Positions 50,564 through 63,925 of a stretch of DNA of 64,000 nt are shown piece after piece; within the stretch, counting starts at the first letter, position 1; every line of letters starts with the position of its first letter. The stretch comes from Cupriavidus necator N-1 (GTDB lineage: Bacteria > Pseudomonadota > Gammaproteobacteria > Burkholderiales > Burkholderiaceae). The DNA lies in the NCBI RefSeq assembly GCF_000219215.1, contig NC_015727.1, forward strand, positions 1,054,001 through 1,118,000. Direction: 5' to 3'. The notes beneath the pieces are model-generated. The model worked only from the letters and a program-made list of their open reading frames with translations. It did no database searches and was not told where the DNA came from. Both the position numbers and the translations under genes were made by a program.

Positions 50564-52205
<1,642 letters not shown>

Positions 52206-53939: not shown

Positions 53940-54254
53940 TCATTCCTGCGGGATGAGGAAACGCTCGGGACGTTTGCCCAACCATGCAGGCGCCCGGCCT
54001 CGTCCGGACCAGGTTTTCCCGGTCTTGGGATCCATATACTTCGGCGGCAGCGGCTCCTTTTCCGCGGGAGCGGAGGCGGTACCGGCGGGCCTGCCCCGAC
54101 GGCGCCGCGGCGCGACATCTTCCGGCGACAGACCATACTGAGACATCAAGCCGCGAATCTGTTCGATGACGCTCGCGACCTCGGTGGCGCGTGCCTCTTC
54201 GATCTGTGCTTCCAAAGCTTGTTTTTGCACAATCAGTTCTTTATACGTCGCCAT
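53940..54254 (-). CDS. H-NS-like nucleoid protein
   Basis: From ATG 54254 (GGAG upstream) the product is 104 residues. An N-terminal helix forms the coiled-coil dimerisation part (MATYKELIVQKQALEAQIEE, ATEVASVIEQIRGLM). The linker is basic (APRRRRGRPAGTA), and the C-terminal DNA-binding motif reads KYMDPKTGKTWSGRGRAPAWL. It belongs to the H-NS histone family common on Burkholderiales accessory DNA. Such proteins silence AT-rich foreign DNA. A start at 54275 is in frame but less well placed. Confidence 0.9.
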   Translation of the reverse strand: MATYKELIVQKQALEAQIEEARATEVASVIEQIRGLMSQYGLSPEDVAPRRRRGRPAGTASAPAEKEPLPPKYMDPKTGKTWSGRGRAPAWLGKRPERFLIPQE

Positions 54255-54756
54255 CTCTTCGTCTCCAATTTTCAAGTCACGATTGACTTATACGCATTTT
54301 AAAGTCGGTCCGCAAGGTGTTCTCTAGATACTGATATGACTTCCCGTGTCAATCGGGATTGGTCTTTGGTTTCTGGTTTGTGCGTTTGATCTGAATTTCC
54401 TGAGGGCAACGTAGCAGTAAGTCTCGACGGTGGCTCACACTGGATATTCGCGGGTTGGCTACCGCATTACAGAGGTCTACCTGGACGTCCCCCGTTTGCG
54501 AAGGTTTTCGTGCGCGCTGACTGACAGGATAGGTTGCAGCTCTACATTCGGCCTTGTTGCAGCCTGACGCGCTGCGGGCCCCTATGAAATCCCCTGACTC
54601 GCACCTCATTCCGCCCACGAGCTAAAAGCTCTCTCTGTAATTCAGGTTTGGCGAGCCCCGGTCCGACCTGTGTTGTCATCGCATACGGTTGCCACCGCAA
54701 CCTTTCAACGTGTCGTCCTGTAAAGGGTTATTGCTCTGGTACAGCACACACCGTGA
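54255..54756. other. Intergenic stretch between hns and the IS110-type remnant
   Basis: 502 bases containing the H-NS gene promoter region. Short frames on the minus strand (54349-54618) are not recognised. The IS110-type transposase stop lies at its right edge. No terminator seen. Confidence 0.35.
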
Positions 54757-55962
54757 TCATGCCGGCTTCGTACTCACATGCTCTTTTTCATAGGGGCTGT
54801 TGTGGGCGAGAACTGCCCAGATTGTACGGGCCATCTTGTTGGCGAGCGCGACGATCGCGACGTTGGAATGCCGTCGTTTGACGAGCTGGGTACCCCATGC
54901 ACCCGGATCCTTCGCATTAGGTATCACCTCGCTTACTGATGCCCAGCAACACGGTTTTCCGGCCCGTGCCCGTTTGTTTGGGAACCAGGCCGAGCCACGC
55001 CGCGAATTCCCGCCCGGACCTGAACGGCTTCGGATTACCCATGGTCGCGACGGCCGCGGTGGCGGTCAGGAGCCCGACGCCCGGTATGGCAGCAATCGCC
55101 TTGCATGCCTGGTCGTCTTTCAGCCATGCCTGCAAGCGCCGTTCAATGTCGGCGATCTGCCGGTCGAGCTTATCGAGGTCATTCCACTGCTCGCGCAGTG
55201 ACTCGATGAGCATGCCGGGTAGTCGCCCGGCGAGTTTCTCCAGAACACCGGGGATTGCCTTGTCGAGCGCCGCTCGGCTCTTGCCCATCACTTCACCATG
55301 GCCTGCAAGCCCAGTACGGCCGGGGAGAAGCGCCAGTTGACCACTGCCTCGCGCAGGGCCGCTTCGAGACGGCTGCATTGCGCGATCCGGTCCTCGATAG
55401 CACGTCGATATTCGTCAAAGGCAAGTTGCTGCCACGCGCTATCGAACACAAAGGCGCTGATCCAGCGCCGGTGAGCTGTTCCCCAGTCGGCTCTGCCGCT
55501 GTAGCGGACCCCATGTGAAAGCAGAAAGGCCTTCAGCAGTTGGCGGGCGCGCTTCATATCGTCTTTGGCGTTGACCCAGGCGCGTGACAGATCCCGGAAT
55601 GCTTCGTCCTCGACGCTGGGCACGTACACCGCCGACAGCCCTGCACGCAACGAGCGCACCAGCTTGACCGCATCGCGCCGATCGGTCTTGACGCGCTCTC
55701 CGGGTTTCTTCGGGATTAGCGACGGCGCGCACACCATGCATTCGAATCCCTTCCCTGCAAGCTGCCGGTAAAGGCCATATCCGCATGGGCCCGCATCGTC
55801 TACGAGGCGGGCCAGTTGGTCGCGCTCGAGCTTGCTTACCCGCACTGCCAGATGGCACAAGTGCGGCTGTTCGTGCGCCGGACGACCACTATCGGTGGCG
55901 GCCAACCGGCTGCTGACGGAAATCGAGAAAAACTTCTCGGTGTTCCGGAATCGGCCGGCCAA
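54757..55962 (-). mobile_element. Chimeric IS110/IS1111-type transposase remnant
   Basis: The upstream part (about 55300-55962) reads LVDDAGPCGYGLYRQLAGKG, MVCAPSLIPKKPGERVKTDRRDAVKLVRSL and YVPSVEDEAFRDLSRAWV, an IS1111-type DEDD domain. The downstream part reads DKLDRQIADIERRLQAWLKD and IAAIPGVGLLTATAAVATMG, the IS110-type C-terminal domain, in another frame. Stops and a frame change separate GISKRGDT from RRHSNVAIVALANKMARTI. The two halves look like they came from different elements joined at about 55300. Not functional. Confidence 0.65.
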
Positions 55963-56043: not shown

Positions 56044-56319
56044 ATGGAGCAAAAGACCGCTCGGCTTACGCTGCTCATCGATCCCAACAAGAAGGCTGCC
56101 TTCGAGCGCCTTTGCGCACAGCAGGATCTGACCGCCTCGCAGGTGATACGGCGTCTTATCCGCGACTACCTGGCCCGGCATGGCGTCCAGTACGTCCCCA
56201 GCGGCGTGGACACCGACAAAGCGGAAGCCATGGGCAAAGAGAGGCCACCGGTCGGCGCGCCGTCGCGGCGCGACGCGAAACTTCCCGCCAAGCGCCGTGC
56301 GATCCGTCGCGGAGCCTGA
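56044..56319 (+). CDS. Ribbon-helix-helix regulator upstream of the hyf-like operon
   Basis: A 91-residue protein: MEQKTARLTLLIDPNKKAAF, ERLCAQQDLTASQVIRRLIRDYLARHG, then an arginine-lysine-rich tail (PSRRDAKLPAKRRAIRRGA). The first 50 residues form a short beta strand and two helices of the CopG/Arc (RHH) type. The protein at 63683-63886 is a clear paralogue. It lies three bases upstream of the hyfB-like ATG and is probably the first gene of that operon. Confidence 0.85.
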   Translation: MEQKTARLTLLIDPNKKAAFERLCAQQDLTASQVIRRLIRDYLARHGVQYVPSGVDTDKAEAMGKERPPVGAPSRRDAKLPAKRRAIRRGA

Positions 56320-56322
56320 TCC

Positions 56323-58347
56323 ATGAGCAGCGTGCCCCCTCTTACCCAATGGCTCCATCTCGACTGGATGCTTGTTGTGGTTGGGGCCTGGCTGCTTGTC
56401 GGCGTGGCAGGGGTCCTGGTGCTGCATCGGTTTGCCCTGGTATCCCATGTGCTATTCCCCATCGGGGGACTGCTAGGGCTGGCGCTGTTCGGTCTGGCGC
56501 TCCACGCCGTATTCCGCGCGCCTGAGGCTGCCGTGCTGCCCATTGGCCTGCCCGCACTGCCGTTCCACCTCCGGCTCGACAGCCTGTCGGCCTACTTCCT
56601 GATGGTAATGGGAGGGGTGGCGACCGGCATCTCGACGTTTGCGGCTGGCTACTTCCGCAAGGGCGAAGGCACGCCACCAGGCCTCCTTTGTCTTGAGTAC
56701 CACCTGTTCCTCGCCAGCATGACCGGGGTGATCCTAGCAGACGATGCCTACTCTTTCATGGTGATGTGGGAAACCATGGCGTTGTCTTCATTTTTCCTGA
56801 TGACCGCCAACCACCGCATCGCCGAAGTCCGCGCCGCCGGCTATCTCTACATCACGATGGCACGCATCGGAGCGATCGCCATCCTGCTGTGCTTTGGCGT
56901 GCTGCAGGCCAACACCGGCGACTATACGTTTGCCAGCATGCGAGGCCAGGCGCTGACGCCGCTCTGGGCCTCGGTCGGTTTCCTGCTGGCGCTGTTCGGA
57001 TTCGGCGCCAAGGCCGGCGTCCTACCTTTGCACGTCTGGCTGCCGGAGGCGCATCCGGCTGCGCCGTCACCGGTGTCGGCAATGATGAGCGGCGTCATGC
57101 TCAACACTGCCATCTACGGCCTGCTGCGTGTGTCCTTCGACCTGCTGCATGTGCGTCTGTGGTGGTGGGGCGGATTGCTGCTGGCCATTGGATTGGCCAC
57201 CGCGCTGTTCGGCGTGGTCTTTGCCGCGGTACAAACGGACATGAAGCGGCTTCTGGCTTATTCGTCGATCGAGAATATGGGCCTACTCTTCGTTGCCATG
57301 GGCCTGACACTGCTGTTTTCAGCCTACGGCATGGCGCCAATGGCCGCCCTGGCCCTGACAGCCGCGCTCTACCATGTCGCCAGCCATGCCTTCTTCAAGA
57401 GCCTGCTCTTTCTGGGAACCGGTAGCGTGCTGCATGCCACCGAGGAGCGAAGCCTCGGCAAGCTAGGCGGATTGATTCGCTATATGCCATGGGTGGGCTG
57501 GCTGACGCTGCTGGGCGTGTTGGCTAGCGCCGGGCTGCCCCCGCTCGGCGGTTTCGTCTCAGAGTGGCTGCTGCTGCAGAGCTTCCTGTTCACGCCGGGT
57601 CTCCCGGAACCGATATTGACCATGCTGATCCCGGTGGTAGCCGCGCTGATCGCGCTGGTGGCGGCACTGGCCGGCTACACCATGGTCAAGTTCTTCGGCG
57701 TGATCTTCCTCGGCCAGCCCCGTGAGCCCAAGCTGGCCTACGCGCACGACGCCGGCCGCTGGGAGCGCGCGGGCATGCTGTGGCTGGGGCTGGGTTGTAT
57801 CGCGCTTGGCCTGCTGCCGACCCAGTTCGTCCAGCTGATCGATCCGGTGACGCAGCAGCTGGTGGCGAGCGGACTCGGCGCCCGGACCGCGGCCAGCGGC
57901 TGGCTGCTGGCGCCGACCGGCCTGGCTCAGGCCAGCTATGGGCCGGTCATTTTCCTGCTAGGCATCCTCGCCAGTTTTGCGCTCGCCTACCTGCTGGTGC
58001 GCCGCTTTTACCACGGTCGGCTTCGCCGCAGCCCGCCCTGGGCTTGCGGCTTCCCATGGAGCACCGCGCGCATGCAGGACACTGCCGAGGGTTTCGGACA
58101 GCCGATCCGCCAGATCTTTGAACCGTTTTTCCTGATGCGCCGCGATCTGCCGACGCCATTCGATGAACAGCCGCACTACCGGGTCACTGTGGCGGATCAT
58201 TTTTGGCGCTGGATGTATGTCCCCGTGATCGATCTGGCGTCGTATCTGGCCCGGCTGATCGGCCTGATGCAACAGGGACGCATCTCGGCATACCTGCTGT
58301 ACAGCTTCCTGACCCTGGCCGCCACGCTATTGGCTGTGATGCGATAA
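56323..58347 (+). CDS. hyfB: HyfB-like (NuoL/Mrp-type) proton-translocating membrane subunit
   Basis: This 674-residue protein is a multi-helix Na+/H+ antiporter-like subunit of the complex-I/hydrogenase-4 family. Blocks include LRLDSLSAYFLMVMGGVATGIS, ADDAYSFMVMWETMALSSFFL (with the key Glu), HVWLPEAHPAAPSPVSAMMSGVMLNTAIYG, MKRLLAYSSIENMGLLF and ASAGLPPLGGFVSEWLLL. Members pump protons in the membrane. It is the first of six genes whose products match HyfB, C, E, F, G and I. The C-terminus (DLPTPFDEQPHYRVTVADHFW) is the hyfB type. Confidence 0.93.
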   Translation: MSSVPPLTQWLHLDWMLVVVGAWLLVGVAGVLVLHRFALVSHVLFPIGGLLGLALFGLALHAVFRAPEAAVLPIGLPALPFHLRLDSLSAYFLMVMGGVATGISTFAAGYFRKGEGTPPGLLCLEYHLFLASMTGVILADDAYSFMVMWETMALSSFFLMTANHRIAEVRAAGYLYITMARIGAIAILLCFGVLQANTGDYTFASMRGQALTPLWASVGFLLALFGFGAKAGVLPLHVWLPEAHPAAPSPVSAMMSGVMLNTAIYGLLRVSFDLLHVRLWWWGGLLLAIGLATALFGVVFAAVQTDMKRLLAYSSIENMGLLFVAMGLTLLFSAYGMAPMAALALTAALYHVASHAFFKSLLFLGTGSVLHATEERSLGKLGGLIRYMPWVGWLTLLGVLASAGLPPLGGFVSEWLLLQSFLFTPGLPEPILTMLIPVVAALIALVAALAGYTMVKFFGVIFLGQPREPKLAYAHDAGRWERAGMLWLGLGCIALGLLPTQFVQLIDPVTQQLVASGLGARTAASGWLLAPTGLAQASYGPVIFLLGILASFALAYLLVRRFYHGRLRRSPPWACGFPWSTARMQDTAEGFGQPIRQIFEPFFLMRRDLPTPFDEQPHYRVTVADHFWRWMYVPVIDLASYLARLIGLMQQGRISAYLLYSFLTLAATLLAVMR

Positions 58348-58354
58348 AGGTTAC

Positions 58355-59302
58355 ATGAACCTGACCGGAATCCTGTCACAGCTACTCGAGATTGTGATCT
58401 CGATCGCGCTGGCGCCACTACTGATCGGCTGGGTCAATCAGTGGCGGGCATGGCTGCAGAACAAGTCGGCACCCAGCCTCTGGCAACCGTATCGAATGCT
58501 GCACAAACTATTCAACAAGGAATCGGTGGTCGCAGATAATGCGTCGCCGCTGTTCCGCGCCACGCCCTATGTGGTGTTCGGCTGCATGGCGCTCGCTTGC
58601 TCGATCATCCCTACCGTTTCCACGGACCTGCCACTGGCACCGGCCGCCGACGCGATCGCCCTGGTCGGCCTGTTCGCGCTGGCGCGGGTCTTCATCTCGC
58701 TGGCGGCGATGGATGTCGGCACCGCGTTCGGAACGCTGGGCGCGCGGCGCGAGATGCTGATCGGCTTCCTGGCGGAACCGGCGCTGCTGATGGTGCTGTT
58801 CTCCGCCTCGCTGATCTCCAAGTCCACCTCGCTCACCACCATTGTCGAGACGATCGCTCACCGGGACCTGGCCATCTACCCGGGCCTGGCGTTTGCCGGC
58901 GTTGCGTTCACCATGGTATCTCTGGCCGAGAACGCCCGTATACCGGTCGACAATCCCGCCACTCACCTCGAGCTGACGATGATCCACGAGGCGCTAATCC
59001 TCGAATACTCGGGCCGACATCTGGGACTCCTTGAATGGGCGGCCAGCCTCAAGCTGTTCGCCTATTCCTGCATCGGCCTGGCACTGTTCTTTCCCTGGGG
59101 CGTTGCCGAAGCGCATGCTCCCCTGGCCATACTGCTGGCGCTGCCCGCGCTGCTGCTCAAGCTCATCGTGGGTGGGGTCCTGCTGGCGGCGCTGGAGACG
59201 GCGAGCGCCAAGATGCGCATCTTCCGTGTGCCGGAGTTCCTGGCCACTGCCTTTCTGCTGGCTGTGATCGGCATGCTGGTCCACTTGCTGCTGGCTCACT
59301 GA
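58355..59302 (+). CDS. hyfC: HyfC-like (NuoH-type) membrane subunit
   Basis: A 315-residue membrane protein of the NuoH/HyfC family: LAPLLIGWVNQWRAWLQNKSAPSLWQPYR at the N-terminus, RVFISLAAMDVGTAFGTLGARREM, GLAFAGVAFTMVSLAENARIPVDNPATHLELTMIHEA and the loop GRHLGLLEWAASLKLFAY. It forms the hinge between the membrane arm and the hydrophilic arm in this enzyme class. The next gene lies ten bases downstream. Confidence 0.93.
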   Translation: MNLTGILSQLLEIVISIALAPLLIGWVNQWRAWLQNKSAPSLWQPYRMLHKLFNKESVVADNASPLFRATPYVVFGCMALACSIIPTVSTDLPLAPAADAIALVGLFALARVFISLAAMDVGTAFGTLGARREMLIGFLAEPALLMVLFSASLISKSTSLTTIVETIAHRDLAIYPGLAFAGVAFTMVSLAENARIPVDNPATHLELTMIHEALILEYSGRHLGLLEWAASLKLFAYSCIGLALFFPWGVAEAHAPLAILLALPALLLKLIVGGVLLAALETASAKMRIFRVPEFLATAFLLAVIGMLVHLLLAH

Positions 59303-59312
59303 GAACACGGCA

Positions 59313-59972
59313 ATGACTGCGCTCCTCACCCAGTTCGTCAACCTCCTTGGCGCGGTGCTATTGATCCTCGCCTTCGCCATGATCTCGCAACGACGAATCC
59401 TGTCGCTGATTTACCTGTTCACGCTGCAGGGGGCGACCTTGGCGTTGGCCACGGCCGTCGTCGGCTACGTGACGGGCCAGCCGCACCTTTATCTGTCGGC
59501 CGGGCTGACCCTGATACTCAAGGTGTTGCTCATCCCCTATCTGCTGCACCGCGTTATCGATCGTCTCCAGATACGCTGGGACGTCGAGACGCTGATCAAC
59601 ATTCCCACTACCATGCTGATCGGCATCATAGTGGTTATCTTCGCCTTCAACCTCACCATGCCGATCTCGCGGCTATCGCTGAAGCTCGCCAGCGGCACGC
59701 TGGGCATCGCGCTGGCCTGCGTGCTGTTGTCCTTCCTGATGATGATCACGCGCTCCAAGGCGGTGCCACAGGTCATCGGTTTCCTGGCGATAGAGAACGG
59801 TCTCTTCTTCGCCGCCACCGCCGCAACCTACGGCATGCCGATGGTGGTCGAGCTGGGCATCGCACTGGATGTGCTGATCGGCGTGCTGATCCTGGGTGTG
59901 TTCATGTTCCAGATCCGCGAGCAGTTCGACAGCTTGGACATCCGTCACCTTGAGAAGCTGAAGGAGGACTGA
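59313..59972 (+). CDS. hyfE: HyfE-like membrane subunit
   Basis: A 219-residue membrane protein starting MTALLTQFVNLLGAVLLILA and continuing AMISQRRILSLIYLFTLQGA, VVGYVTGQPHLYLSAGLTLILKVLLIPYLLHRVIDRL. The late part QVIGFLAIENGLFFAATAATYGMPMVVELGIALDVLIGVLI has the NuoK-like Glu pattern of the hyfE family. It lies between hyfC- and hyfF-like genes, as expected for a hydrogenase-4-type membrane arm. Confidence 0.9.
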   Translation: MTALLTQFVNLLGAVLLILAFAMISQRRILSLIYLFTLQGATLALATAVVGYVTGQPHLYLSAGLTLILKVLLIPYLLHRVIDRLQIRWDVETLINIPTTMLIGIIVVIFAFNLTMPISRLSLKLASGTLGIALACVLLSFLMMITRSKAVPQVIGFLAIENGLFFAATAATYGMPMVVELGIALDVLIGVLILGVFMFQIREQFDSLDIRHLEKLKED

Positions 59973-59973
59973 G

Positions 59974-61428
59974 TTGATTTCCTTGGCCATGCTGCTCGCA
60001 ACCCCGTTCGCCGGAGGGCTGGTGCTGGCGCTGGTGGGACATCGCGAGCGTGCACGCGACATCAATGTCGCGTTCAGCCTGGGCACATTCCTCGCCGCCT
60101 GCATGCTTACGGCGCAAATCGTCGCCAATGGCCCGATGCTGGCGTGGGGCCGTGAGTTCTACATCGACCCGCTGAACGTTTTTCTGGTTGCGCTCACCGC
60201 GTTCGTGGGCCTGACCACCTCGATCTTCTCGCGGCCGTACATGCGGGTGGAGCACGATCACGGTAAGATGACGCCGCCGCGGCTGCGCCTGTACCACAGC
60301 ATGTACCAGCTCTTCACCTTCACCATGCTGCTGGCGCTGACGACCAACAATATGGGCATCGTGTGGGTTGCGATGGAGGCCGCCACACTGACCACGGTGC
60401 TGCTGGTCAGCGTCTACCGCACCGCCGCTAGCCTGGAGGCGGCATGGAAGTACTTCATCCTGTGCGGGGTGGGGATTGCCCAGGCACTGTTCGGCACGGT
60501 GCTGCTGTACATGGCCGCCGAGCAGGTCATCGGCCCGGAGGGTGGCGCGCTGCTGTGGACCAACCTGGACGCGGTCAAGCGCCAGCTCGATCCCAACATC
60601 ATCACGCTGGCGTTCGCCTTCCTGTTTATCGGCTATGGCACCAAGGTCGGCCTGGTCCCACTGCACAACTGGCTGCCCGATGCCCACGCCGAGGGGCCAA
60701 CCCCGGTGTCCGCGGTGCTCTCCGGCCTGCTGCTCAATGTGGCGCTCTATGCCGTGCTGCGCTGCAAGGTGCTGACCGATGCGGCGCTGGGCAACCATCT
60801 GACCGGCCGCCTGATGATGGGGTTCGGCCTACTATCGGTGGTCGCGGCCGTCTTCTTCCTGATCCGGCAGCGCGACATCAAGCGCATGTTCGCGTATTCG
60901 TCGATCGAGCACATGGGCTTGATGACCTTCGCCTTCGGCATGGGCGGGCCGGTCGCCAGCTACGCCGGCCTGCTGCACATGACGGTGCATTCGCTGGTCA
61001 AGTCCGCGATCTTCTTCGCTGTTGGCCACGCCGCGCAGAAAGCTGGCACGCAAATCATGGACGACATCCGCGGACTGATCCGTGTCAGTCCCACGGTCGG
61101 CTGGGGTCTGATGGTAGGGGTGCTCGCCATCCTGGGTATGCCGCCGTTCGGGGTCTTTGCTAGCGAGTTCCTGATCGTCACGACCGCCATGCGCGAGCAG
61201 CCGTGGGCCACGCCCTTCCTGCTGCTCGCACTCGGGTTGGCGTTCGCCGCGGTGTTCAGTCGGGTGCAACCGATGGTGTTCGGCGACACCACGCTCAAGC
61301 CGCTGGCGCATCCGCCAGCGCTGGTCCCGGTGTTCACGCACCTCGCCCTAGGGCTAATGTTGGGTCTTTATATCCCGCCCTATCTCAACACCTGGTACCG
61401 GCAGGCAGCCGCCATGCTGGGGAGCTGA
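59974..61428 (+). CDS. hyfF: HyfF-like (NuoN/NuoM-type) membrane subunit
   Basis: This 484-residue protein starts at TTG 59974 (AAGGAGG upstream, one base after the HyfE stop). It has antiporter-like segments: NMGIVWVAMEAATLTTVLLVSVYRTAASLEAAWKYFILCG (key Glu), FLFIGYGTKVGLVPLHNWLPDAHAEGPTPVSAVLSGLLLN and KRMFAYSSIEHMGLMTFAFGMG. These are typical of the second proton-translocating subunit. Together with HyfB it would give two channel-like modules. Confidence 0.92.
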   Translation: MISLAMLLATPFAGGLVLALVGHRERARDINVAFSLGTFLAACMLTAQIVANGPMLAWGREFYIDPLNVFLVALTAFVGLTTSIFSRPYMRVEHDHGKMTPPRLRLYHSMYQLFTFTMLLALTTNNMGIVWVAMEAATLTTVLLVSVYRTAASLEAAWKYFILCGVGIAQALFGTVLLYMAAEQVIGPEGGALLWTNLDAVKRQLDPNIITLAFAFLFIGYGTKVGLVPLHNWLPDAHAEGPTPVSAVLSGLLLNVALYAVLRCKVLTDAALGNHLTGRLMMGFGLLSVVAAVFFLIRQRDIKRMFAYSSIEHMGLMTFAFGMGGPVASYAGLLHMTVHSLVKSAIFFAVGHAAQKAGTQIMDDIRGLIRVSPTVGWGLMVGVLAILGMPPFGVFASEFLIVTTAMREQPWATPFLLLALGLAFAAVFSRVQPMVFGDTTLKPLAHPPALVPVFTHLALGLMLGLYIPPYLNTWYRQAAAMLGS

Positions 61429-61432
61429 CCCG

Positions 61433-62983
61433 ATGACACCGTCAGATCTCAGGCTCGATCTGCTGCGACTGCCCGGGCCGCTGCCAGTCTGGCATGGCCA
61501 GGTCGGGCACGACGGCTGGTCCGCCACGGCCCGTGCGGTGGCGGACGCGGGCGGGCGCCTCGTCGCGCTGTGGGGCGTCGACCGGAGTGGCAGCGGCGGT
61601 GCGTTGACGGCATGCGTGACGTACGCCACGCCGCGGGGACTGATATGGCTCGAACTGCGGCTTGATGGTATCGCGCCCGCGGTGCCGGATCTGGCCGGCG
61701 TATTCCCATGCGCGGGCCGGATGCAGCGTGCCATGACCGACCTGGTGGGTATCGCCGTGCCGGGCAACCGCGATGCCCGGGCCTGGCTGGACCACGGCCT
61801 GTGGCCGCCGGGGGCGCGGCCGCTGCAAAGCGGCGCGTCTGCGGGAGCGGCCACGGCCGGCAAACTGCCTGCCGACTATCCTTTCGTGCGTGTGGAGGGT
61901 GACGGGGTGCACGAGATCGCCGTCGGCCCGGTGCATGCCGGCATCATCGAGCCCGGCCATTTCCGCTTTTCCGTGGTCGGCGAGAAGGTGCTGCGGCTGG
62001 AAGAACACCTGGGCTACACCCACAAGGGCATCGAGCGGCGTTTCACCGATCTGGCGCCGCTTGAGGGATTCCGGCTGGCCGGCCGGGTCTCGGGCGATTC
62101 CACCGTGGCTTATGCCTGGGCCTATTGCATGGCGCTGGAGTCCGCCTGGGGCTGCACGCCTCCACCGCGGGCGGACTGGCTGCGCGCCCTGATGCTCGAG
62201 CGTGAGCGGGTGGCCAATCATATGGGTGACCTGGGGGCGCTGGGCAACGACGCGGGGCTCGCCTTCGGCCTGGCGCAATTCTCGCGCTTGCGCGAAGACT
62301 GGCAGCGGCTGTCCGGAGAGGCTTTCGGTCACCGGCTGATGATGGACGCCGTGGTGCCGGGCGGCGTTGCGCGCGACCTGACGCCAGCGATGCTTGAGCG
62401 CCTGCGTCAGCAGTGCGACCACATTGAGCGGGAAGTACGCGTGCTGCGTGCGGTGTACGATGAGCACGCGGGCCTGCAGGACCGCTTTCTTGAGGCGGGC
62501 CGCGTCACGCCACAGCTTGCCGCCCAGCTTGGGCTGACCGGCCTCGCCGGACGTGCCAGTGGCCGCGCCGTGGACCTGCGCTGCGACCTCGCCTGGCTAC
62601 CTTACGATAGCTTGGCAGTGAAAATGGCCACCCACCGCGGTGGCGATGTCGCCGCCCGCGTGGCGGTGCGATTCGATGAGCTGTTGGAGTCGCTGCGCCT
62701 GATCCGCGCTATCTGTGCAGGCCTGCCGGAGGGAGCCACGCGAATCGTGCTGCAAGCGCCCGCTGGCGCCGCCATCGGGGCAGGATGGGTGGAGGGCTGG
62801 CGTGGCGAAGTCTTCGTCGCGCTCGAACTTACCTATGACGGCCGCATCCTCCGTTGCCATTGCCACGACCCATCGTGGCAGAACTGGCCGGTGCTCGAGC
62901 ACGCCATCATCGGCAACATCGTGCCGGACTTTCCGCTGATCAACAAATCCTTCAACCTCAGCTATTCGGGGCACGATCTCTGA
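61433..62983 (+). CDS. hyfG: HyfG/HycE-like large subunit without Ni-binding cysteines
   Basis: A 516-residue fusion of a NuoC-like N-terminal domain (about residues 1-140) with a NuoD/hydrogenase-large-subunit domain. GPVHAGIIEPGHFRFSVVGE, RLEEHLGYTHKGIERRF and RERVANHMGDLGALGNDAG are conserved. Hydrogenases have a CxxC in the position of residues 218-223, which here reads RVSGDS, and a DPCxxC at the C-terminus, which here reads INKSFNLSYSGHDL. No other CxxC that could hold Ni is seen. It therefore should not oxidise or make H2, and instead fits the Ehr group. Confidence 0.93.
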   Translation: MTPSDLRLDLLRLPGPLPVWHGQVGHDGWSATARAVADAGGRLVALWGVDRSGSGGALTACVTYATPRGLIWLELRLDGIAPAVPDLAGVFPCAGRMQRAMTDLVGIAVPGNRDARAWLDHGLWPPGARPLQSGASAGAATAGKLPADYPFVRVEGDGVHEIAVGPVHAGIIEPGHFRFSVVGEKVLRLEEHLGYTHKGIERRFTDLAPLEGFRLAGRVSGDSTVAYAWAYCMALESAWGCTPPPRADWLRALMLERERVANHMGDLGALGNDAGLAFGLAQFSRLREDWQRLSGEAFGHRLMMDAVVPGGVARDLTPAMLERLRQQCDHIEREVRVLRAVYDEHAGLQDRFLEAGRVTPQLAAQLGLTGLAGRASGRAVDLRCDLAWLPYDSLAVKMATHRGGDVAARVAVRFDELLESLRLIRAICAGLPEGATRIVLQAPAGAAIGAGWVEGWRGEVFVALELTYDGRILRCHCHDPSWQNWPVLEHAIIGNIVPDFPLINKSFNLSYSGHDL

Positions 62984-63513
62984 TGTGGCAAATCCTCAAG
63001 CAGATTGCCCGCACCGGCATTGTCACCGAGCCGGCGCCGCCCACCGCGGCGGGCGAGCCCGCCTCTATCCAGCGCATTCACCGGGAGCTGCTCGACATTC
63101 TCGGTCAGGCGCTGACGATCCGGCAGGTCGACGCAGGCTCGTGCAATGGCTGCGAGCTGGAGATCCACGCACTCGGCAATCCTTACTACAACATTGAAGG
63201 TCTCGGCATCAAGTTCGTCGCCAGCCCGCGCCATGCCGACATGCTCCTGGTGACCGGACCCGTCTCGCGTCACATGGAAGAGGCCCTGCGACGCACCTAC
63301 GCGGCAACCCCGGAGCCGAAACTGGTAGTGGCGGTGGGCGACTGTGGCTGCACCGGCGGTATCTTTGGGGAGAGCTATGCAAGCTGCGGTCGTGTCGCCA
63401 ATGTCATCCCCGTAGACGTAACCGTGCCAGGCTGTCCACCGCCGCCATTAGAGATCCTGCGCGGGATTCTGAGCGCCATTCGGCAGCGGCAGACCAATCC
63501 CGCACGGCGCTAG
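62983..63513 (+). CDS. hyfI: HyfI-like small subunit with [4Fe-4S] cysteines
   Basis: A 176-residue NuoB-like subunit from ATG 62983, which overlaps the HyfG stop (TGATG). The cysteines expected for the N2-type cluster are present: GSCNGCEL (C54, C57), VGDCGCTGG (C121, C123), YASCGR (C135) and VPGCPPPP (C151). It should hold the electron-entry cluster nearest the large subunit. This is the last gene of the six-gene operon, and no ferredoxin-like HyfH subunit, maturation protease or formate dehydrogenase follows. Confidence 0.92.
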   Translation: MWQILKQIARTGIVTEPAPPTAAGEPASIQRIHRELLDILGQALTIRQVDAGSCNGCELEIHALGNPYYNIEGLGIKFVASPRHADMLLVTGPVSRHMEEALRRTYAATPEPKLVVAVGDCGCTGGIFGESYASCGRVANVIPVDVTVPGCPPPPLEILRGILSAIRQRQTNPARR

Positions 63514-63682: not shown

Positions 63683-63886
63683 TCACCCACGTTCCTTCGC
63701 CGCCAAACCAGGTGCGCCGATCTTCGGTTTGGTGGCGTAGTCCACCTCGTACTGCTGCAAATAGTCGCGGATCATCTGGCGAACAATCTGAGATGGCGTC
63801 TGGTCTTGGGCGGCACAGAGCGCCTCAAAAGCCTTCTTCTTCTCCGGATCGATCAATACGGTCAGGCGAGCGGTCTTGGATTCCAT
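63683..63886 (-). CDS. Second ribbon-helix-helix regulator, convergent with the hyf-like operon
   Basis: A 67-residue protein: MESKTARLTVLIDPEKKKAF, EALCAAQDQTPSQIVRQMIRDYLQQYE, then a short tail (YATKPKIGAPGLAAKERG). Its first 45 residues match the 56044 protein in the pattern KTARLT-LIDP-KK-AFE-LCA-QD, then SQ and IRDYL. It is on the opposite strand to the operon, so the operon is bracketed by two related regulators. A perfect palindrome lies upstream of its ATG. Confidence 0.85.
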   Translation of the reverse strand: MESKTARLTVLIDPEKKKAFEALCAAQDQTPSQIVRQMIRDYLQQYEVDYATKPKIGAPGLAAKERG

Positions 63887-63906: not shown

Positions 63907-63925
63907 ATGATAATAGCATTATCAT
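63907..63925. promoter_or_regulatory. Perfect palindrome upstream of the second RHH gene
   Basis: ATGATAAT, three bases (AGC), then ATTATCAT form a perfect inverted repeat with 8-bp arms, 21 bases before the ATG at 63886. AT-rich sequence follows (ATATACAATTG). It is the likely operator of the RHH regulator, whose binding also could overlap a promoter there. Confidence 0.6.

Follow-up and report, generated by a model that had tools for sequence, protein, structure and literature searches.

Ech-hydrogenase-related (Ehr) complexes are defined in print by the genes ehrABCDLS and by a large subunit that lacks the CxxC motifs (PMC6688271, PMC10284858; citations here refer to the portions of these papers available to us). 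The hyf operon at positions 56323-63513 of a 64,000-nucleotide stretch of Cupriavidus necator N-1 (contig NC_015727.1; hereafter the window) shares the six gene kinds and the CxxC-less large subunit with complexes described under this name (PMC6688271, PMC10284858, PMC6349859, PMC7894505), whereas Geobacter Ehr has an additional second EhrA (PMC7894505, PMC13194489). All of the printed features that were compared are present, which supports the proposal of the initial annotation that the predicted complex belongs to this known family; the assignment is by these defining features and not by a tree with named Ehr proteins. The same six genes have been reported as hyfBCEFGI in C. metallidurans CH34 (Rmet_4666-4671) and C. 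necator H16 (H16_A2196-2201), where they were read as an incomplete hydrogenase-4 operon, with no discussion of the nickel ligands in the available text (PMC2864759). At the DNA level, the operon has a match of 79.3% in NC_007974.2, the record of CH34. Further, the motifs printed for hydrogenase-like clusters of Acidithiobacillus thiooxidans, SGD[TS][TS][AV][GA]Y and NLSYSGHDL, are those of the window; part of that cluster was called formate dehydrogenase, and a novel complex was suspected (PMC6002666). Both the Cupriavidus operon and the Acidithiobacillus motifs are hence already in print. Added here are evidence that the operon is no relic, a seventh gene, for a ribbon-helix-helix (RHH) DNA-binding protein, and a link to genes of SulP-like transporters. 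Judged from its predicted proteins, the operon most likely encodes a minimal complex related to formate hydrogenlyase and to respiratory complex I.

The six genes lie on the forward strand in the order hyfB-C-E-F-G-I, all six open reading frames (ORFs) are open, and neighbouring genes are spaced by at most 10 nucleotides or overlap by one base. Two products exceed their NCBIfam cut-offs: HyfB (EhrA-like, 674 amino acids, 56323-58347; NF005086, hydrogenase 4 subunit B, 908 bits) and HyfF (EhrD-like, 484 amino acids, TTG start, 59974-61428; NF005045, hydrogenase 4 subunit F, 918 bits), both antiporter-type membrane subunits. The remaining four have NCBIfam matches below the cut-offs. These are HyfC (EhrB-like membrane subunit, 315 amino acids, 58355-59302; matching NuoH, PF00146 at 1.2e-32), HyfE (EhrC-like membrane subunit, 219 amino acids, 59313-59972; hydrogenase 4 membrane subunit, NF008556 at 7e-24), HyfG (EhrL-like large subunit, 516 amino acids, 61433-62983; matching NuoD) and HyfI (EhrS-like small subunit, 176 amino acids, 62983-63513; matching NuoB, PF01058 at 1.9e-31), the last with an ATG that overlaps the hyfG stop. 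Pfam agrees with these types (antiporter for B and F, NuoH for C, NuoC/NuoD for G, NuoB for I), except that HyfE, of HyfE type by NCBIfam, has no Pfam match. The ORFs and family matches bear out the gene order and products first proposed, as well as the lack of a ferredoxin-like subunit, since no ORF of the HyfA or HyfH kind is found between the six genes.

To place the operon among its relatives, we used an even sample, one draw of 398 genomes from the phylum, in which HyfG matches (threshold 1e-40) occur in 73 genomes. In 63 of these, the window's included, the match belongs to the Ehr family (at least 41% identity), and in the other ten it is formate-hydrogenlyase-like (28-30% identity). 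Complexes of the Ehr kind are thus widespread. They carry hydrogenase names in databases, and the available portions of the literature report no substrate for them. The loci compared with the window number 145: the best 80 of 579 from one scan, 60 from the even sample, and five plasmid records. The 60 even-sample loci represent the 63 Ehr genomes with the window, G049 and G144 left out. Two of the rows used, L115 and L132, come from a single contig that was therefore counted double. All six genes were detected in 113 of the 145 loci, invariably in B-C-E-F-G-I order (113/113); of the remaining 32, most are truncated at the end of a contig, and in others, such as L104 and L106, a member went undetected.

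The large subunit has lost its nickel site. Residues 71-513 of HyfG align with E. coli HycE (7z0s_E, E 1.4e-51), and the alignment places RVSGDS of HyfG opposite RVCGIC of HycE and NLSYSG opposite DPCYSC, so that the former ligand motifs L1 and L2 read S220-G221-D222-S223 and S510-Y511-S512-G513. The loss extends to an alignment of 146 HyfG sequences, the window's among them, whose relatives are 39-90% identical to it (median 51%); L085 was omitted from alignment A2, as its HyfG contains a stop. Not one of the 146 has a CxxC pair in the former ligand columns. This confirms the loss of both motifs noted in the initial annotation, and it shows that neither a local frameshift, which that annotation had named as a possible refutation, nor a sequencing error is the cause. 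Column 220 holds S in 132 sequences, A in seven, C in six and V in one; column 223 holds S in 114, T in 20, A in six, M in four and C in two; column 510 holds S in 129, A in ten, N in six and one gap; and column 513 holds G in 142, A in three and one gap. Asp222, inside the former first CxxC, is D in all 146, and near the carboxyl end N504, K505, S506, Y511 and D515 are identical in 145/146 and N508 in 144/146. The predicted NiFe pocket of HyfG is therefore rebuilt without any nickel ligand, around the invariant Asp222.

Other subunits have fixed residues as well. The four cysteines of one [4Fe-4S] cluster in HyfI (C54, C57, C121 and C151), which the small subunit had been said to retain, are fixed in 129-130 of 129-130 sequences. 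In HyfB, E150, K230, K308, H355, K359 and E414 are fixed (111-112/111-112), in HyfF E135, K224, K303, H339, K343 and E398 (134-135/134-135), and in HyfC E141, E192, D199, E206, E212 and E217 (122/122). These charged residues lie where complex I has its proton path, so this feature of a complex I-type pump is found in both the antiporter-like and the NuoH-like subunits. The HyfC stretch DNPATHLELTMIHE, three residues longer than in E. coli HycD, HyfC and NuoH, also contains N200, T203, H204, T208 and H211, all invariant (122/122). The ratios of nonsynonymous to synonymous substitution rates (dN/dS) of the six genes against four relatives are 0.05-0.26. Because Asp222 is fixed in every HyfG, the pump residues are fixed and dN/dS is low, the hyf operon is no relic, and a predicted nickel-free reaction is under strong selection.

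The conservation of the cluster and the pump, together with a pocket that is conserved but altered, leads us to favour, with moderate confidence, a working redox-linked proton pump of the Ehr kind with a rebuilt, nickel-free pocket. Such a complex would couple a cytoplasmic reaction to transmembrane proton movement. Because the operon encodes no ferredoxin-like subunit, a soluble carrier of low potential, either ferredoxin or flavodoxin, would dock directly on HyfI. Electrons would then pass to a small acceptor bound in HyfG at the rebuilt pocket, other than protons at nickel or a quinone bound by the classical His/Tyr pair, and the charge change would pass from HyfC to HyfB and HyfF, pumping protons. 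In reverse, the proton motive force could drive an uphill reduction. Several points weigh against this proposal. The Ehr literature, in its available portions, names neither a substrate nor an electron donor and describes no activity; a 2026 study of Geobacter considers its Ehr to be nonfunctional and drifting (PMC13194489); and the authors who described the C. metallidurans and C. necator hyf genes judged a lithotrophic role very unlikely (PMC2864759). Clustering of the flanking genes found no constant neighbour that would name a partner. Conservation is evidence of use, and not of use as a redox pump specifically. Finally, the AlphaFold model of HyfG (38-row alignment, mean predicted local distance difference test score, pLDDT, 84.3) is poor at residues 163-198 and at the pocket end, 510-516, and for this reason we make no claim about pocket geometry.

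A small quinone-reducing complex I, in which quinone receives electrons from ferredoxin or a different carrier where HyfG, HyfI and HyfC meet, would account for subunits of the NuoD, NuoB and NuoH types and for the conserved Asp that HyfG, like NuoD, has one residue before its end. However, His38 and Tyr87, the quinone residues of Nqo4, face I172 (146/146) and G221 (143/146) of HyfG, and at many fixed columns HyfC is closer to formate hydrogenlyase subunits than to NuoH. The loss of the His/Tyr pair makes this explanation unlikely.

The gene neighbourhoods allow a bolder reading, a possible role in inorganic carbon. Among 1054 flanking ORFs, 12 in 11 loci are SulP-like, and 11 of the 12 lie on the same strand as the operon at upstream places 1-3, in 10 of the 110 loci with upstream sequence. 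None occurs among the 152 ORFs at the fourth or later upstream place or the 488 at the second or later downstream place. Assuming a generous rate of 0.2% per gene and independent places, at least 11 in 288 places would arise with a probability of 3e-11. In L087 only the STAS end of the SulP-like gene is seen, and in L085 it is a merged ORF. In a quickly built tree of HyfG (141 rows, with flagged long branches), the SulP label changes nine times for 11 rows, a count made with no shuffled control. These label changes indicate that the predicted link is recurrent and not one inherited event, although losses count among them too. A hexapeptide protein is encoded beside SulP in three of the loci (L127, L089 and L076). 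The L127 protein has carbonic anhydrases among its PDB matches (3oup_A at 7.7e-28; the best match, named dGCA1, at 6.2e-31), and those of L127 and L089 keep both DGxxIH and AHxSxxHG, the motifs with the three zinc histidines; L076, which is cut, shows the second motif only. In L089 and L127 this gamma-carbonic-anhydrase-like gene overlaps the estimated hyfB start by about 16 nucleotides, the gene starts of relatives and their gaps to hyfB being estimates (tblastn, longest ORFs). Against the NCBIfam models for carbonic anhydrase and the bicarbonate transporter BicA, the hexapeptide and SulP proteins all score below the cut-offs, the SulP proteins far below in the case of BicA, and the general sulP cut-off is reached by two of the three SulP proteins scanned. 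We therefore assign no carried anion; these SulP proteins may transport sulfate or other anions and not necessarily bicarbonate.

Published neighbourhoods are in part consistent with such a link. The hyf cluster of A. caldus adjoins a beta-carbonic anhydrase (PMC3826726), a 2024 review found recurring carbonic anhydrase and formate hydrogenlyase neighbours hard to understand (PMC10880623), and the A. ferrooxidans genome paper describes SulP/carbonic anhydrase pairs (PMC2621215). Apart from the A. caldus gene and the review, the available portions of the literature do not link SulP or gamma-carbonic anhydrase to the six-gene unit. RuBisCO genes co-occur with the operon in some groups. In the phylum sample, 38 of the 63 Ehr genomes have RuBisCO, where fragments in family f39 (E 1e-71 to 1e-79) were counted and weaker form-IV-like matches elsewhere were not. 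Outside f39 the enzyme is found in 15 of the 32 Ehr genomes, compared with 25 of about 302 others (p 1.5e-7, with no control for relatedness), which leaves 17 of the 32 without it. Within f39 the association is reversed, with RuBisCO in 23 of 31 Ehr genomes and in 33 of 33 others (totals of only the genomes in the two lists). Within the genus, 8 of 16 genomes with the operon have RuBisCO and 7 of 44 others do (p 0.015), a link that drops to p 0.11 once genome size is controlled by shuffling the labels inside thirds of similar size. With this reversal and this loss of significance, the co-occurrence is a hint that the operon serves autotrophy and does not prove it. The window's own genome has a high-scoring RuBisCO gene on contig 1 and, some 98 kb away from the operon (G000:C4:1215240-1216082), a RuBisCO-like gene that belongs to the weaker-scoring class. 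A link to CbbR was considered and dropped, because the LysR neighbour cluster mixes different LysR proteins.

Taken as an explanation for the operon, these observations would have Ehr pumping, or the proton motive force, tied to bicarbonate uptake or CO2 hydration, either inside the rebuilt pocket itself or by way of SulP and gamma-carbonic anhydrase partners, as in NDH-1/Cup- and DAB-like systems. The upstream SulP genes, the adjoining carbonic-anhydrase-like genes and the RuBisCO enrichment outside f39 and in the genus favour it, and it would, if true, help to explain the neighbours that puzzled the reviewers (PMC10880623). Against it, 100 of the 110 loci have no upstream SulP gene, only two of 47 even-sample loci have one, and none lies near the window operon, whose genome has five SulP genes elsewhere. 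With the low family scores and the reversal in f39 added, we consider energy coupling for inorganic carbon unlikely, and the boldest explanation for which the neighbours leave room. The recurrent SulP and carbonic-anhydrase neighbours suggest which phenotype to look for first.

Decay into a nonfunctional, drifting hydrogenase relic, as claimed for Geobacter Ehr (PMC13194489), would agree with the patchy presence of the operon in the genus (16 of 60 genomes). It is contradicted by the fixed columns in all six proteins and the low dN/dS, and is very improbable here; the predicted family analysed, which includes no Geobacter sequence, does not fit that claim. Instead, its conservation implies selection on a nickel-free reaction in a relative of complex I.

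The host genome (8.48 Mb in four contigs, 100% complete according to its record) has no match to PF00374 and no HypD, other Hyp genes not having been searched; the absence of maturation genes proposed in the initial annotation is thus upheld genome-wide for HypD. The same annotation reported no formate dehydrogenase, which is correct near the operon and not for the genome, since two Fdh-alpha genes above the family cut-off are present on contigs 1 and 3. A full NuoD is encoded separately. Among the best 120 matches listed, the nearest named proteins come from Cupriavidus. In the even sample, 22 of the 63 Ehr genomes have HypD, compared with all ten formate-hydrogenlyase-like ones, and it is absent from 29 of the 49 Ehr genomes that are at least 90% complete. 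A working [NiFe] hydrogenase-4 or formate hydrogenlyase, to which the gene order, the automatic names, the Fdh-alpha genes and the greater abundance of Geobacter Ehr proteins on formate than in hydrogen-containing conditions (PMC7894505) might point, is excluded by the predicted HyfG without a nickel ligand, the host genome without HypD or PF00374, and the operon without a ferredoxin-like subunit.

The initial annotation counted six genes in the operon. The six hyf genes stand, and the count does not, because an RHH gene (56044-56319, forward strand, 91 amino acids; Pfam RHH_9, 9.5e-23) ends 3 nucleotides ahead of the hyfB ATG and is therefore probably the first of seven. Its product is probably a regulator of the operon. 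An RHH gene also stands immediately before hyfB in L046, L047 and L123. A small DNA-binding gene precedes the operon in 29 of the 47 even-sample loci with upstream sequence. In 25 of these it is the next gene (17 XRE-cupin, seven small XRE, one RHH), and in the other four (L139, L141, L176 and L178) an XRE gene is followed by a gene for a 701-713 amino acid protein and then by hyfB. This protein is of antiporter type in L139, the only one scanned, and the four loci are perhaps a seven-subunit variant. In most cases the regulator gene runs 6-49 nucleotides past the estimated start of hyfB. A second RHH gene (63683-63886, reverse strand, 67 amino acids, 51% identical to the first) faces the operon from the opposite side, with the exact palindrome TGATAATAGCATTATCA just upstream of it at 63908-63924. 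The same palindrome, TGATAATAGCATTATCA, lies about 100 bp upstream of hyfB in L005 and L125. The form TGATAATN3ATTATCA occurs once in the window, and shuffles give 0.55 with up to 3 mismatches.

Other neighbours are lineage-bound, including SulP, spermidine-synthase-like, methionyl-tRNA-synthetase-like and small regulator genes. Upstream in the window are a flavohaemoglobin-like gene (50564-52048), an H-NS-like gene (53940-54275) and an IS110-type transposase in two pieces (54917-55378 and 55288-55962), all on the reverse strand. Downstream of the window in its own genome (L182, 10072-14383), HPr-like, spermidine-synthase-like, YoaK-like and 619-amino-acid sigma-70-like genes were named by eye. 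In B. stagnalis (L005), the genes annotated next to hyfB include HPr, spermidine synthase, CopG and YoaK, and in CH34 a second sigma-70 gene, Rmet_4661, is found close to the hyf genes. In Variovorax sp. PBL-E5 (L004, 1-3547), a second operon of the same kind, with a 4Fe-4S protein, lies just upstream; its large subunit ends in SFDLSYCGNDL.

Compared with known systems, the predicted complex has the fold and subunit types of E. coli formate hydrogenlyase and hydrogenase-4 and differs from them in that they have nickel ligands, ferredoxin-like subunits and maturation proteins. Its pump subunits are homologous to those of respiratory complex I, whereas the NADH module and the classical quinone residues are missing. 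The cyanobacterial NDH-1/Cup and DAB are CO2/bicarbonate complexes with a carbonic anhydrase or inorganic-carbon transporter partner. DabA (PF10070) is absent from the host genome, and some relatives of the window operon have carbonic anhydrase-like or SulP gene neighbours. If the coupling to inorganic carbon were true, Ehr would be a further complex-I-like CO2 machine beside NDH-1/Cup and DAB.

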